From Flavobacteriales bacterium (GTDB taxonomy: Bacteria; Bacteroidota; Bacteroidia; Flavobacteriales_C; GCA-002722245), in the NCBI GenBank assembly GCA_002722245.1, contig PBLA01000030.1:1-64000 (forward strand): DNA of 64,000 nucleotides, written 5' to 3'. The notes beneath the pieces were generated by a model, which was not told the origin of the DNA, searched no databases, and saw nothing but the letters and a program-made list of their open reading frames with translations. The position numbers and the translations under genes were made by a program. Shown one piece after another: positions 8,393 through 18,442 of the stretch (position 1 is the stretch's first letter; each line of letters opens with the position of its first letter).

Positions 8393-10207
8393 TTGGGGAA
8401 TCAGGATGAAATACAAAAAAATCATTTAGATCGTGCATTAGAGAAGATTCGCTTATTAGAGGTGTTAATGCAGTCCAAAGACGATGAAATTATTGCATTG
8501 AAGCATAGACTTAATGAGCAACTCGCAGATAAAGATGTGGTTTCTATCATGCTTTCTACAATTCTTGCTGAAATTGACGTAAAAGAAAATAGCGGAGTTG
8601 AGATAGAAGGAGATTTAAGTAAGATTCAACGATTACAATCCCTTATTTTAAATTTAAAAAGTAAAAAGAATCAGGCAGAGTTTGAAGCTGAAGTAAAGTC
8701 AAATTTTTTGGCAAATATGAGTCATGAGATTCGTACACCAATGAATGGAATAATGGGTTTAACAAAGCTATTATTAAACACAACGTTAGATCAACAGCAG
8801 GAGGAGTATTTAAAATCTATTGAATCGAGTTCAGATACTTTACTTGTTATAATTAACGACATTCTCGATATTTCAAAAATTGAGGCGGGTAAATTGAACT
8901 TAGAACATGAAGATGTTGATTTGATTAATGTGCTTCATTCGGTATTGGGGTTTTTTGAAGGTAAAGCAAGGGAAAAAGGAATAGAGATTATTGCGAATTT
9001 TCATGAAGCAAATCTTCCAGAGATTATTGTGGGAGATGCGGTTAGGTTAAATCAAATTTTATATAATTTGATTGGTAATGCAATAAAATTCACGGATAAG
9101 GGGAGTGTCTCCTTGAGTGTTAAAGCGACTAGTATAAACGAAAATGATGTGAGGCTCCGATTTATGATTTCTGATACGGGAATAGGAATAAGTGAGGAGC
9201 AACAAAAGAAGTTATTTAATGCTTTTAGTCAAGCGAAATCAAGTACGGCGAGGCAATTTGGAGGAACTGGTTTGGGACTTTCAATTGTAAAAAAATTAGT
9301 TGAGGCGCAAGGTGGTATTATTGAAGTGGAAAGTGAACCAGAAAAAGGCGCTTCATTTCAATTTGAATTGAGTTATCCTCACAAGAAACGTGAAGCTTCT
9401 GATGTAACTAAATATCAACAAATAGCGGCTAAGAATTTAGAAGGAGTCACAGTTCTCTTAGTGGAAGATAATATTGTTAATCAGGTCGTTGCTAGGGATT
9501 TATTGGCAGTAATCGGCGTAAAAACAGATGTTGCTAACAATGGTGAAGAGTGTTTAAATGTTATTGACGACGATCGTCATCAAATCATATTAATGGATAT
9601 GCATATGCCTGTCATGAATGGTTACGAAGCTATTATGAGATTGAGAGAAGATAATATAAAACTCCCAATAGTTGCACTAACTGCTCATGTAACAGAACAA
9701 GAGATAGAAGGTTTTATGACGGCTGGAGCTAACGGCTATTTATCCAAGCCGTATACGCCTCAGGATTTATATAGAACAATTGCCGACTTATTGCAACCAT
9801 CAGAGGTCATTAGTAGTCCAAAGACAAGATTTGGGTTGAATGATCAAGGTGGTAAGACCGTATTGAAAATGTGGAATAGAGATCACATGATGAATTATTT
9901 GGGAGGAAATGAAAAGATGTTGGTGAAGGTTTTAAATCAGATGGCTGTTGAGTTTCCTAAAAGCATTAAGGTGTTGAATGACGTTGTAAACGGTGGTCAT
10001 GTAAAAAAAATAAGCGCTGTTTGTCATAAAATTAAACCCAATATCAAAATGTTAGGTAATCAAGCAGTATATAAAGATGTGGTTGAATTAGAGCATGCTC
10101 TGAAAAAAAATAAAGATTCAAATGAGCTTAGAGGGCAGGTGAGTAGATTGATGAAAAACCTTCGAGAGTTGTTGGCGGAAATAAGCCAATGGCTCTCTTT
10201 TGAATAG
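8393..10207 (+). CDS. Soluble hybrid histidine kinase (HisKA-HATPase-REC-HPt)
   Basis: Residues 1-100 are predicted coiled coil with no membrane helix. The H-box [15 protein letters not shown] puts the phospho-His at residue 111. The ATPase N-box ([17 protein letters not shown]), DTGIGI and [10 protein letters not shown] are intact. A receiver domain starts at [10 protein letters not shown] with the acceptor Asp in [12 protein letters not shown] and the conserved Lys in LSKPY. The C-terminal 100 residues form an HPt domain with His in [14 protein letters not shown]. All parts for a His-Asp-His relay are therefore present in one cytosolic protein, without a visible input domain. The frame opens with TTG 8393; the first ATG is 8468, which would trim the coiled coil. 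No response regulator lies nearby, so the output partner is encoded elsewhere. Confidence 0.9.
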
Positions 10208-13497: not shown

Positions 13498-14493
13498 ATG
13501 CTTTATGACTACTTTAAAGTCATGTTTAAAAACTTTATTTCATATAGAATTCTAGTAATTTTTGGATTAAGTTTTTTTTGTGCTTTTGGGATAAAATGTA
13601 CAGGAGTAATGAGGGATTTTTTTTTCAGTTGGATGTATGGCTTTCTGTATTGCGTTTTATTAATGGAGTTGGGAAGAGTGTTAGTCAATAAAATAGTTTC
13701 AAGAGCTCACGTGTACTTTTCAATTTTCCTTTTTTTATTTACAGTTTTAAGCGGTTTGTTTACGTATTCGATTAGTCAATGGCTAAGAAATCAGATTACT
13801 GATCCTAAACTATTTTGGCTATTTGCGGGAGGAGTAATTTTAATTACTGTTACCGTTAATGGTATTTATTTTTTGGTCAAAATAAATGCCAAAGAACGTC
13901 TGGTTTTAATGGATCAAAAATATGTTTATTTACAACATACCTTCAATGCGCTAAAATCACAAAATGTGATTGAATTCTTGAAGAATTCACTAAATCAAAC
14001 AGAGGAATTAATAAAACAAAAGCCACGATTAGCAGTGCAGCAAATAGAGAAGCTAACTGCTATATTGCGTTATTTGTTGCAGAGTAGAGATGAAAAGTTT
14101 GTGCAATTAGGTGCTGAAATTAGAAATGTAAAAGCTTATTGTGAACTTACTGAAATTCAATTAAATAAGACGGTTTCATTAACTGTTAATATATCTGAGC
14201 AATTCTACACCACTCAAATACCTCCTCTTGTATTTCAAATGGTTTTGGATCAACAATTTAAACTATTTGCGAGAAAAGATCAGTCGGTTTTATCAATTGA
14301 AGTTTATGTTGAAAATGCAAAATTTGTTGTGGTAAAAACCTCTTTGCCTTTGGAAGAGGAGAATCGATTTAAAAATGATCGTTTTATTAATAACCTTAAA
14401 CAGAGATATCAGTTATACAATAAGGCATCAGGAGTTTCAGAGTTAAGTACAACCTCCGAATATTTTGTTAAATTTCCATTAGTAGCAGGGTAG
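13498..14493 (+). CDS. Membrane-bound degenerate LytS-type histidine kinase (pseudokinase)
   Basis: A 331-residue protein with four hydrophobic helices (about 15-32, 41-57, 72-92, 107-127), then a region that follows the His_kinase (LytS/YehU-type) pattern over its length: RLAVQQIEKLTAILRYLLQ, EIRNVKAYCELTEIQLN, QIPPLVFQMVLD. Every catalytic position I can align is lost. The usual NPHFLFNSLN reads VIEFLKNSLN, with Glu 159 in place of the phospho-His. The usual ENAIKH reads DQQFKL, with Gln 252 in place of the Mg-binding Asn, and the GxGL glycine box is absent (FKNDRFINNLKQRYQL). It has no LytTR regulator beside it. One base separates it from the PrsW-like gene, so both are in one operon. I infer a non-enzymatic sensor or scaffold for the protease. 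Confidence 0.75.
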   Translation: MLYDYFKVMFKNFISYRILVIFGLSFFCAFGIKCTGVMRDFFFSWMYGFLYCVLLMELGRVLVNKIVSRAHVYFSIFLFLFTVLSGLFTYSISQWLRNQITDPKLFWLFAGGVILITVTVNGIYFLVKINAKERLVLMDQKYVYLQHTFNALKSQNVIEFLKNSLNQTEELIKQKPRLAVQQIEKLTAILRYLLQSRDEKFVQLGAEIRNVKAYCELTEIQLNKTVSLTVNISEQFYTTQIPPLVFQMVLDQQFKLFARKDQSVLSIEVYVENAKFVVVKTSLPLEEENRFKNDRFINNLKQRYQLYNKASGVSELSTTSEYFVKFPLVAG

Positions 14494-14494
14494 T

Positions 14495-16501
14495 TTGAAA
14501 AAGTTTATAACATATGTTTTTCCCGTTACGGCTGTTTTAGTGGCCGTAGTGAATATTTTCTTTTCAAATCCTCAATATCCCTCTTTGGAGAAAGAATTAG
14601 AGGAATATAAGCTATTAGGTGATATTCAAAAACAAAACATAATTTATTGGAAGTTGATTCATGCCGATAGTTCTCATGTGGCGAATCATTTTAATTTTAT
14701 TTCCACTTATTTTCAGTTACCTATTGCTAATAATGGAATGGGGAGAGGCGAATTTTTAGAATACAATACTGTTGTAGATTACTATCGTCATTTTTTGGGT
14801 AGTTCAAAAAGTGAGGTCTCCGACATTGGAAAGTTTGGCAGAGGAATGTGCTTTTATCACACCGGTTACATTGAGGAGGCGCTTACGAGTTTTGTGAATA
14901 TTTACAACCAAAAGATGCCTTATCTCAATTATATATATGGTCATTATTTTGGCTACAATAATTATGAAAAGTCGGTGGAGTACCTTAAAAAAGAAATTGA
15001 ATCAAATCCGTCAAATGTTTTAGCACGAAAACATCTTGCTTTGAAATATATGAACCACGAAAAACCTGTGGTGTTGAATGAGATGCTTAAAGACTCTTTA
15101 TCTTTTGTTCATGTTTCAAATAAAGTAAAACGATATACTTATTTTGAATTAAGAGACCTTAAAAACTACACAAAAGCAATTTTTGGTCGATTTTTTAGCG
15201 GTGTAAATGCGTTTGGATTTACTGGTGCGCTACTAATTTTAATTATATGGTTTTGTTATTTGCTCTTTATTCATAAATACTTAATTAAACGATGGAGGTT
15301 GGCATTGGTGGTGCTTATTTTAGGAATGTGTTTTGCTTTTGTGACTTCTCTCATTACTGACTTTAATTCGTATGTTTTAGGATTTAAATTGAAGGATAGA
15401 TTTTTTAGTGATTTTGTTTATTGTGTTGTAGGAATAGGGGCTATTGAAGAGCTTGTTAAAATTCTCCCATTACTCTTAGTAATGGTATTCAGCAGGAAAT
15501 TAAAAGAGCCGATTGATTTTGTTGTTTTCGCATCCATATCGGCACTCGGTTTTGCATTTATTGAAAACCTAATATATTTTGACGAAAGCAGTTTAAATAC
15601 TATACAAGGTCGCTCCCTATCTTCAACTGTTACACATATGTTTAACAGTTCTCTTGTCGCATACGGTATAGCCATTGGGAAATTTGCTAAAAAGAAGAAT
15701 TGGGGCTGGTATTTTTTACTTTTTTACGGTCTGTCTGCGATCTGCCATGGCTTTTATGATTTCTGGCTAATAAACAGTATTGCGCGATCTTTTAGTTTTA
15801 TTACGTTTATTTGGCTACTGGCAAGTATGGTGCTTTGGGTGTCAGTATTAAATAATTGTCTCAATAATAGTTACAACAAAAAAATTATTTGGACATATAA
15901 TCCTGATCGGTTAAACAGTTATTTATTGTTTGGACTCTCTGCTATTTTCCTTTTTGAATATTGTTTAATGGGTTGGAGATTTAATGCAGAAGTTGCGAAT
16001 GCAGAACTCCAAAAAGATTTGTCTTCCGGGTTTTTCTTGTTACTGTTTTTAACCACAAAATTGAGTCGGTTTGATGTGATTCCTAATTATTGGGCCCCAC
16101 TTAGGTTGTGGGATTGGAATACATTGTTCAGTGTGCCTCGAGTAGAGGCTCAATCGTTTAATCTTGACCAAATTATTGGTTCAGAGGTGATCATTGAAAA
16201 TTATGGAGAATATGGTGTTTTAGCCAAACATTTACCCATAAAAGGGGAGGTGGTTAAACGAGAATTACTTTCCTGGGAAAAGGATTGGTACTTGATTAAA
16301 TTAAATGAGCCATTAAATATCGCCTGGAAAAAACAATATTTTATTTGGTTAAAAACAAAGGATCCAAATGAAATCTTTTTAAGCAGAGATCAACAGCCTG
16401 TTCAAGTAAGGCTCGTGAATAAAATTGATGATTTGGCGAAGGAAAGAAAACGCAAGCGAGATTTCTTGTTTGTTGATTTAGCCTTGGTTTCTAATCAATA
16501 A
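14495..16501 (+). CDS. TPR-PrsW family intramembrane protease
   Basis: The 668-residue product starts at TTG 14495 (MKKFITYVFPV), one base after the stop of the pseudokinase gene. It has an N-terminal membrane anchor, a TPR-like helical region (about 30-230), a multi-helix membrane core (about 240-520) and a soluble C-terminal tail (about 540-668). The core shows all PrsW/Abi-superfamily motifs: GAIEELVKILP (Glu 318, Glu 319), ALGFAFIENLIYF (Glu 357), THMFNSSLVAYGIAIGK (His 381) and CHGFYDFWL (His 418, Asp 422). PrsW cleaves the anti-sigma factor RsiW in Bacillus; the substrate here is unknown and no anti-sigma gene is visible. The large TPR and tail domains are beyond the usual PrsW length. 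Confidence 0.85.
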   Translation: MKKFITYVFPVTAVLVAVVNIFFSNPQYPSLEKELEEYKLLGDIQKQNIIYWKLIHADSSHVANHFNFISTYFQLPIANNGMGRGEFLEYNTVVDYYRHFLGSSKSEVSDIGKFGRGMCFYHTGYIEEALTSFVNIYNQKMPYLNYIYGHYFGYNNYEKSVEYLKKEIESNPSNVLARKHLALKYMNHEKPVVLNEMLKDSLSFVHVSNKVKRYTYFELRDLKNYTKAIFGRFFSGVNAFGFTGALLILIIWFCYLLFIHKYLIKRWRLALVVLILGMCFAFVTSLITDFNSYVLGFKLKDRFFSDFVYCVVGIGAIEELVKILPLLLVMVFSRKLKEPIDFVVFASISALGFAFIENLIYFDESSLNTIQGRSLSSTVTHMFNSSLVAYGIAIGKFAKKKNWGWYFLLFYGLSAICHGFYDFWLINSIARSFSFITFIWLLASMVLWVSVLNNCLNNSYNKKIIWTYNPDRLNSYLLFGLSAIFLFEYCLMGWRFNAEVANAELQKDLSSGFFLLLFLTTKLSRFDVIPNYWAPLRLWDWNTLFSVPRVEAQSFNLDQIIGSEVIIENYGEYGVLAKHLPIKGEVVKRELLSWEKDWYLIKLNEPLNIAWKKQYFIWLKTKDPNEIFLSRDQQPVQVRLVNKIDDLAKERKRKRDFLFVDLALVSNQ

Positions 16502-16927: not shown

Positions 16928-18442
16928 ATGACTGGAACAACAGCTTTAGTGATTATTTTAATCTATTTTTCTGTCCTGATTGGTATATCCTACATGACTT
17001 CTCGTAAAAGCACGAATAAATCATTTTTTACAGGTGATCGGCAATCGCCATGGTTTCTTGTTGCATTTGGAATGATTGGTGCCACATTATCTGGAATTAC
17101 TTTTATTTCAATCCCAGGATCCGTTTTTGGAAAAGGATTGCAATATATGCCTATGGTAATTGGTTTTTTTCTAGGATATTTTATTGTATCATATGTACTT
17201 ATTCCCATTTACTATAAGTATAATTTAACCTCTATTTACACGTATTTAAGGGATAGATTTGGAACAGCTTCATTTAAAACAGGAGCCATTTCATTTTTAA
17301 TTTCAAGAATAATTGGCGCTTCTTTACGACTATATCTAGTGGCAGAGGTATTGGATATTTTTTTATTTGAACCTACAGGCATTCCTTATTCGATTGGTGT
17401 GCTTATGACTATTTTGCTTATTTGGGTTTATACCTTTAAAAGTGGAATCAAAACAATTGTTTGGACAGATACTTTGCAAACCGCAGCAATTTTATTAGCT
17501 GCAGGAGCTACTCTTTTTTATTTGGCAGATGTGAATTCAGGTGGGATCGCTCATTTGTGGGAAATGGCCTCAAATAGTGACTTATATAATTTTAATGGCG
17601 GTAAATTAAAAGAAGGGAATATTTGGCTAGGAATTTTTAATGGAATCATATTTACCGTTGCTATGGCCGGGCTTGATCAGGATATTATGCAAAAAAACCT
17701 TACGTGTAAAAACAAAAAGGAAGCTCAAAAGAATTTAACATGGTTCAGTATCGTTCTAGTGCCAATCAACTTTGTGTTCTTGCTTTTAGGTATACTTTTA
17801 TTTGAAACATATATGGGCACAGGAGATTTAAAAGCCATCGTTATTGAAAGTACAAATGAATTAGGAGATGTTGTAAAGTCTGGTGAGTATAGGATAAATA
17901 TTGATGGAGAAATGACTAAAATAGCTCCTGATCAAATTTACCCTTCTTTGGCCAAGAATGGTTACTTTCCGTTGTGGTTAAGTGGAACTTTTTTAATTGG
18001 ATTAATTGCAGCCGCCTATTCGAGCGCTGATTCCGCTTTAACTTCATTAACAACAAGTGTTTGCATTGATATTGTTGAAAAAGAAGATCGAAGAACGAGA
18101 ACAGTTGTTCATGTTTTAATGAGTGTAATCTTATTCTTTGTAGTTATGCTCTTCAAAGCGATTAATAAGGATAGTATCATTTGGGAATTATTTAAATGGA
18201 CTAGTTTTACCTACGGACCTTTGCTTGGGCTTTTTGGAATTGGTATTCTAAGTAAAATTCAAGTCAAAGATACAGTTGTTCCATTTATAGCAATATTGAG
18301 TGCTGTTTCAAGTTATTTCATGGCTGATTTTTTTGGATTAGGATTTGAAATTTTAGCCATAAACGGGGGAATTACGGCTTTGGGGTTGTTGCTTTTTAAA
18401 AAGAAAAAAACTTGTGAGCATTCAGCCTCTCTCGATGAATAG
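16928..18442 (+). CDS. Sodium:solute symporter (SSS family)
   Basis: A 504-residue integral membrane protein with about 13 hydrophobic segments, as in the SSS/SLC5 family. Recognisable features are the first helix (TTALVIILIYFSVLIGISYMTS), the loop SFFTGDRQSPWFLVAFGMIGA, the Gly-rich ISIPGSVFGKGLQYMP, GLDQDIMQKNLTCKN and the Na-site helix AAAYSSADSALTSLTTS. The family moves sugars, proline, pantothenate, iodide and others with sodium; the substrate here cannot be told, although sugar or sialic-acid-type transport is common for this length. A TACTTTTC element at 16894-16901 may be the -7 box. It is followed by an L,D-transpeptidase gene 33 bases on. Confidence 0.9.
   Translation: MTGTTALVIILIYFSVLIGISYMTSRKSTNKSFFTGDRQSPWFLVAFGMIGATLSGITFISIPGSVFGKGLQYMPMVIGFFLGYFIVSYVLIPIYYKYNLTSIYTYLRDRFGTASFKTGAISFLISRIIGASLRLYLVAEVLDIFLFEPTGIPYSIGVLMTILLIWVYTFKSGIKTIVWTDTLQTAAILLAAGATLFYLADVNSGGIAHLWEMASNSDLYNFNGGKLKEGNIWLGIFNGIIFTVAMAGLDQDIMQKNLTCKNKKEAQKNLTWFSIVLVPINFVFLLLGILLFETYMGTGDLKAIVIESTNELGDVVKSGEYRINIDGEMTKIAPDQIYPSLAKNGYFPLWLSGTFLIGLIAAAYSSADSALTSLTTSVCIDIVEKEDRRTRTVVHVLMSVILFFVVMLFKAINKDSIIWELFKWTSFTYGPLLGLFGIGILSKIQVKDTVVPFIAILSAVSSYFMADFFGLGFEILAINGGITALGLLLFKKKKTCEHSASLDE

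Follow-up and report, generated by a model that had tools for sequence, protein, structure and literature searches.

The window analysed here, a 64,000-nucleotide stretch of DNA from the 3.0-Mb, 34-contig genome of a Flavobacteriales bacterium, contains a gene for a degenerate LytS-type histidine kinase followed immediately by one for a PrsW-family intramembrane protease (Table 1). The genus that carries the degenerate kinase is probably marine, judging from the isolate names of the nearest named records ('Flavobacteriales bacterium' MAGs). Both open reading frames lie where an earlier note on this DNA had placed them (13498-14493, + strand, 331 aa; 14495-16501, + strand, 668 aa), with the small correction that the first probably starts at a Met at 13522, since its orthologues have no counterpart of the first eight residues. 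The first protein scores above the cut-off of the Pfam His_kinase family (PF06580; 46.3 bits against 25.2), and two of its orthologues reach 32-34 bits with the same profile. Its AlphaFold2 model (mean pLDDT 84) comprises four membrane helices, a long DHp hairpin and an ATPase-like domain; the predicted fold is LytS-like, and among solved structures the GanS kinase domain matches it best (E 7e-9). Another fold match of this model is 3gif, a DesK structure that carries an engineered His-to-Glu change.

Table 1. Features of the pseudokinase and protease genes, with positions in the window
Feature	Position	Strand	Details
LytS-type pseudokinase	13522..14493	+	323 aa from conserved Met; longest ORF from 13498; model pLDDT 84
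Pseudokinase, four transmembrane helices	13522..13881	+	~residues 1-120 of the 323-aa form; 28-34% identity between species
Pseudokinase, degenerate DHp/H-box	13948..14085	+	residues ~151-196 of the 331-aa form; KSQNVIEFLKNSLN replaces KxQxNPHFLFNSLN
Pseudokinase, Glu159 codon (GAA), phospho-His position	13972..13974	+	from alignment
Pseudokinase, degenerate N-box	14218..14268	+	IPPLVFQMVLDQQFKLF; three orthologues have Asn
Pseudokinase, degenerate G1/G2 boxes	14326..14409	+	VVVKTSLP...RFINNLKQRY
TPR-PrsW intramembrane protease	14495..16501	+	668 aa; TTG start one base past the pseudokinase stop (TAG)
TPR-like helical repeats between TM1 and TM2	14585..15196	+	residues 31-234; predicted periplasmic
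PrsW core	15290..15820	+	EExxK residues 318-322, E357, H381, HGFYD 418-422
C-terminal beta-rich domain	16160..16498	+	~residues 556-668; predicted cytosolic; no known family matched

The catalytic positions of the kinase-like protein were compared in an alignment of about 30 intact LytS kinases with the four orthologues, all of one genus. As the earlier note had held, Glu159 aligns to the His of NPHFLFNSLN, the register being fixed by the surrounding LKxQ....FL..SLN, and the phospho-His position is occupied by Glu in all four orthologues. The G1 Asn/Asp that contacts the adenine is likewise replaced in each of them, by Thr. The GxGL box is gone: RFINNL takes its place in the window protein, and both G2 positions lack Gly in all four. 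The N-box is less uniform: Gln252 aligns to the Asn of ENAIKH in the window protein, but the other three orthologues keep the Asn (LDNQFKN), so that in this alignment its loss is species-specific rather than general. Thus, the proposal that every catalytic mark is absent holds across the genus for the phospho-His, the G1 Asn/Asp and the GxGL box, and in the window species alone for the N-box Asn. A different alignment register that would restore the His, Asn and Gly was considered and rejected, because the flanking residues fix the register. From the missing residues we infer that the protein does not autophosphorylate; it should not pass on phosphate and hence would have to act through protein contact.

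The gene is under constraint throughout the genus. Its dN/dS values are 0.16-0.33 between pairs of orthologues, rough figures given that most pairs approach saturation at synonymous sites, and this purifying selection excludes a chance origin of the gene. The frame is open in four species, and the alignment contains long invariant blocks of residues. Identity between species is 28-34% in the transmembrane part and 65-70% in the cytosolic part; for the active LytS kinase on contig 7 and its orthologues in the genus, which served as a control, the corresponding values are 31-33% and 60-68%. Because its evolution resembles that of an active LytS kinase encoded in the same genomes, the gene is, on these sequence comparisons, maintained under the constraint of a working kinase rather than left as debris. 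With the fold retained, the catalytic residues lost and the gene selected, the protein is, from its sequence and predicted model, a true pseudokinase. The same control bears on the earlier suggestion that it senses a membrane signal, which gains no special support: conservation is lowest in the transmembrane part of both the pseudokinase and its active sister. The notion of a membrane part specially conserved as a sensor is likewise rejected, since it diverges as fast as that of the active kinase.

In a tree of LytS kinases, the four pseudokinases form one branch (support 100/100) on a long stem of 2.83 changes per site, nested among the short four-TM LytS kinases of Bacteroidia. A LytTR-type regulator gene adjoins all nine of the near kinase relatives whose neighbours were read, with a motif scan used for most others. 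No LytTR regulator or active LytS gene lies near the pseudokinase within the ~16 kb common to the four genomes. The genome encodes five LytS kinases and nine LytTR proteins, only four of the latter adjoining a LytS kinase. The five that do not, on contigs C5, C9, C26, C30 and C34 of the window genome (G000; L163, L164, L166-L168), are candidate partners of the pseudokinase.

The second gene encodes a protein with a match to the PrsW-protease family (PF13367; 98.8 bits against a cut-off of 23.5) and a subthreshold one to the equivalog model NF033739 (45.5 bits against 225). Because it falls below the equivalog cut-off, it is by sequence a PrsW-family protease but not established as an RsiW protease. 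The complete catalytic core described in the earlier note was borne out: E318, E319, K322, E357, H381 and H418 are invariant in the 16 rows compared, and D422 is nearly so. The additional domains were recovered as well, with residues 31-234 matching a TPR protein at the profile level (E 5e-12) and appearing TPR-like in the structural model, and a predicted beta-rich domain closing the C-terminus. A dN/dS of 0.08-0.16 indicates that the protease is constrained. The C-terminal domain has a conserved RELxSWEKDWYLV motif across the long PrsW family; searches for its identity brought up no match in Pfam or among PDB sequences, and no clear one to a known fold. The Lys+Arg counts of the short loops (16 in 64 residues versus 5 in 47) lead us to predict that the N-terminus and the C-terminal beta domain are cytosolic and the TPR domain periplasmic. 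The cytosolic core of the pseudokinase could therefore not dock on the TPR domain directly; in the predicted topology, it could meet the C-terminal domain and loops of the protease. The TTG start was also considered as a sign of translational coupling but dismissed as evidence for it: the PrsW genes of the sister genus use GTG, TTG and ATG starts with no upstream pseudokinase.

Both genes are present in four of the five genomes of the genus that were examined, and in all four they are co-directional and separated by 1-10 bases. The fifth genome (G003), 77% complete, lacks the pair together with both flanking genes, and its lack of the pair is therefore uninformative. The earlier note had proposed to look for conserved pairing across Bacteroidota genomes, and we see such pairing within the genus, in every genome that holds the region, but not beyond it. 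All five genomes of the sister genus carry PrsW, at different sites and without a LytS gene next to it. Elsewhere in the class, PrsW occurs apart from a pseudokinase at some 20 additional loci, and no LytS neighbour was present at the other long PrsW loci read in the class. Moreover, the genus shares its gene order over the region from ~7.3 to 23.3 kb of the window (~16 kb), apart from a few genes gained or lost, and because this whole neighbourhood is collinear, the conserved adjacency argues only weakly for a link between the two genes. As far as sequence can tell, the pairing is genus-specific, with conservation that goes little beyond local synteny. Functional coupling of the pseudokinase and PrsW is plausible; as asserted in the earlier note, it went further than the genus-wide collinearity and the occurrence of PrsW apart from a pseudokinase elsewhere would bear out.

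Other genes of the neighbourhood were also inspected. A sodium:solute symporter gene (16928-18442) follows PrsW in the genus, and such a gene also stands divergently beside PrsW in a distant family (G010; L129, L048). A conserved partnership of the protease and the symporter is not supported, the sister genus having the symporter on other contigs. A cytosolic hybrid histidine kinase with HisKA, HATPase and receiver domains (8393-10207) stands beside the region in three of the four genomes and has no match at the corresponding place in the fourth (L068). A search for membership of the locus in a defence system gave no PADLOC match.

A second family of LytS pseudokinases, with degraded N and G boxes, is present in seven genomes spanning five families of the class. 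The residue at its His position is, across the seven genomes, Y, D, D, D, Q, E and D. In each case its gene follows that of an intact LytS kinase, and in six of the seven a LytTR-type regulator comes next, the seventh cassette ending at a contig edge. These cassettes are found at L171-L177 (e.g., L172:294-3326 and L174:733-3542), and also at L099:234-2389 and L112:1270-3523. In a quick tree with long branches, the second-family proteins form a single clade apart from that of the window pseudokinase, which, as a separate clade with no such neighbours, falls outside this type of cassette. By this tree, LytS pseudokinases had at least two origins, mostly with acidic replacements of the phospho-His, and such convergence suggests a frozen mimic of the phosphorylated His. 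We know of no previous description of a cassette that joins a LytS kinase, a LytS pseudokinase lacking the His and a LytTR regulator.

Taken together, we favour, at a probability of roughly 0.4, the reading that the window pseudokinase is made together with PrsW and serves as a non-catalytic membrane adaptor that governs the activity of the protease or its access to substrates. The shared catalytic losses, the dN/dS values, the tempo matching that of an active kinase and the LytS-like predicted fold argue for it, as do the gaps of 1-10 bases, the lack of a LytTR or active LytS gene beside the pair, and a protease that is both complete and constrained. Against it stand the collinearity of the ~16 kb across the genus, the PrsW loci elsewhere with no LytS neighbour, and the placement of the separate LytS pseudokinase family in two-component operons. 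In mechanistic terms, a four-TM LytS-type sensor kinase has, by its sequence and predicted model, lost autophosphorylation while keeping its dimerisation and ATPase-like fold. Its membrane helices and cytosolic core may then meet the cytosolic loops and C-terminal beta domain of PrsW or, alternatively, the cytosolic part of a PrsW substrate. By analogy with the engineered DesK H188E, Glu159 might hold the helical bundle fixed in a phosphorylated-like state. The pseudokinase would have been recruited in one genus only, to a protease that is older and functions elsewhere apart from it. A more specific version, in which a sensor kinase was rewired from the phosphorylation of LytTR regulators to the contact-dependent gating of an intramembrane protease, with Glu159 as a phospho-His mimic fixing the output domain, we consider unlikely.

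An alternative is that the pseudokinase modulates a two-component system, as a non-phosphorylating, phospho-His-mimicking partner of an active LytS kinase or a LytTR regulator, and that its adjacency to PrsW is incidental. The second pseudokinase clade, whose members in seven genomes from five families adjoin an intact LytS kinase on one side and, in six of them, a LytTR regulator on the other, makes such a role a serious rival, and the surplus of LytTR proteins not beside a LytS kinase would offer possible partners. Further, the well-conserved stretches of the window pseudokinase include the H-box/DHp region, where ordinary kinases meet their regulators. A comparable case has been described in Caulobacter, where the pseudokinase DivL reads a response regulator (PMC4211667). 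However, no LytS or LytTR gene lies near the pseudokinase in any of the four genomes, and the tree keeps the two pseudokinase clades apart, so that we hold this role to be a distinct possibility but would not bet on it. It is rather improbable that the pseudokinase acts by itself on a target elsewhere, such as by sensing or scaffolding at the membrane, sharing a transcript with PrsW but no functional link: this would sit well with the collinearity of the whole region and with the independence of the sister-genus PrsW from any pseudokinase, but not with gaps of just 1-10 bases in all four genomes. That the gene is decaying and being lost, as several lost catalytic residues and the stem of 2.83 changes per site might suggest, is very improbable and was rejected in view of the dN/dS well below 1, the rate shared with the active-kinase control, the frame open in four species and the invariant blocks. 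Least credible of all is residual kinase activity through an unusual chemistry in which other residues substitute, to which the N-box Asn of three orthologues and the intact predicted fold might lend themselves; all four proteins, however, lack the phospho-acceptor, the adenine contact and the two G2 glycines.

The components of the adaptor reading have counterparts in known systems. Histidine pseudokinases (PMC4211667) and PrsW proteases fused to signalling domains (PMC3482391) have been described before. The LytS/YehU (BtsS)-type histidine kinases (PF06580) work with LytTR regulators (PMC5552118, PMC10653868). Like them, the window pseudokinase combines membrane helices with a DHp region and an ATPase-like fold, and it nests among their short four-TM Bacteroidia members; unlike them, it has no phospho-His, GxGL, G1 Asn/Asp or LytTR neighbour, and a PrsW gene stands in the place of the regulator. 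DivL, a PAS-bearing pseudo-histidine kinase with Tyr at the His position, otherwise keeps its H, N, G1, F and G2 boxes (PMC4211667). The two proteins are alike in being selected histidine-kinase folds that lack the phospho-His and are expected to act by binding, whereas the window protein is LytS-type, has Glu at that position and has also lost G1 and G2, and a response-regulator partner is known for DivL only. As mentioned in PMC7005713, DesK H188E is an engineered mutant (PDB 3gif), in which, as in the window protein, Glu replaces the phospho-His; DesK is of the HisKA_3 type and its change is man-made, whereas the Glu of the pseudokinase is natural and fixed in the genus.

On the protease side, the window protein shares the EExxK, Glu, His and HxxxD elements of a multi-TM core with Bacillus PrsW (NF033739, PF13367), but is distant at the equivalog level and adds the TPR-like and C-terminal beta domains. 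PrsW proteins are also found fused to PilZ, cyclic-nucleotide-binding and FHA domains, for which signal-dependent cleavage was proposed (PMC3482391). The locus described here similarly links PrsW to a signalling module, although that module is a separate degenerate kinase gene and not a fused ligand-binding domain. Full-text literature searches of partial coverage turned up neither a LytS-type pseudokinase nor a PrsW-kinase pair. To our knowledge, no LytS-type pseudokinase has been described.

The recurrence of mostly acidic phospho-His replacements in two separate lineages makes natural phospho-His mimicry a testable idea. Phosphotransfer and intramembrane proteolysis are usually separate modes of signalling, and if the genus-specific pseudokinase does control PrsW, it would join the two. 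Should the more specific rewiring reading hold, it would represent a switch from phosphotransfer to proteolysis inside one bacterial genus.
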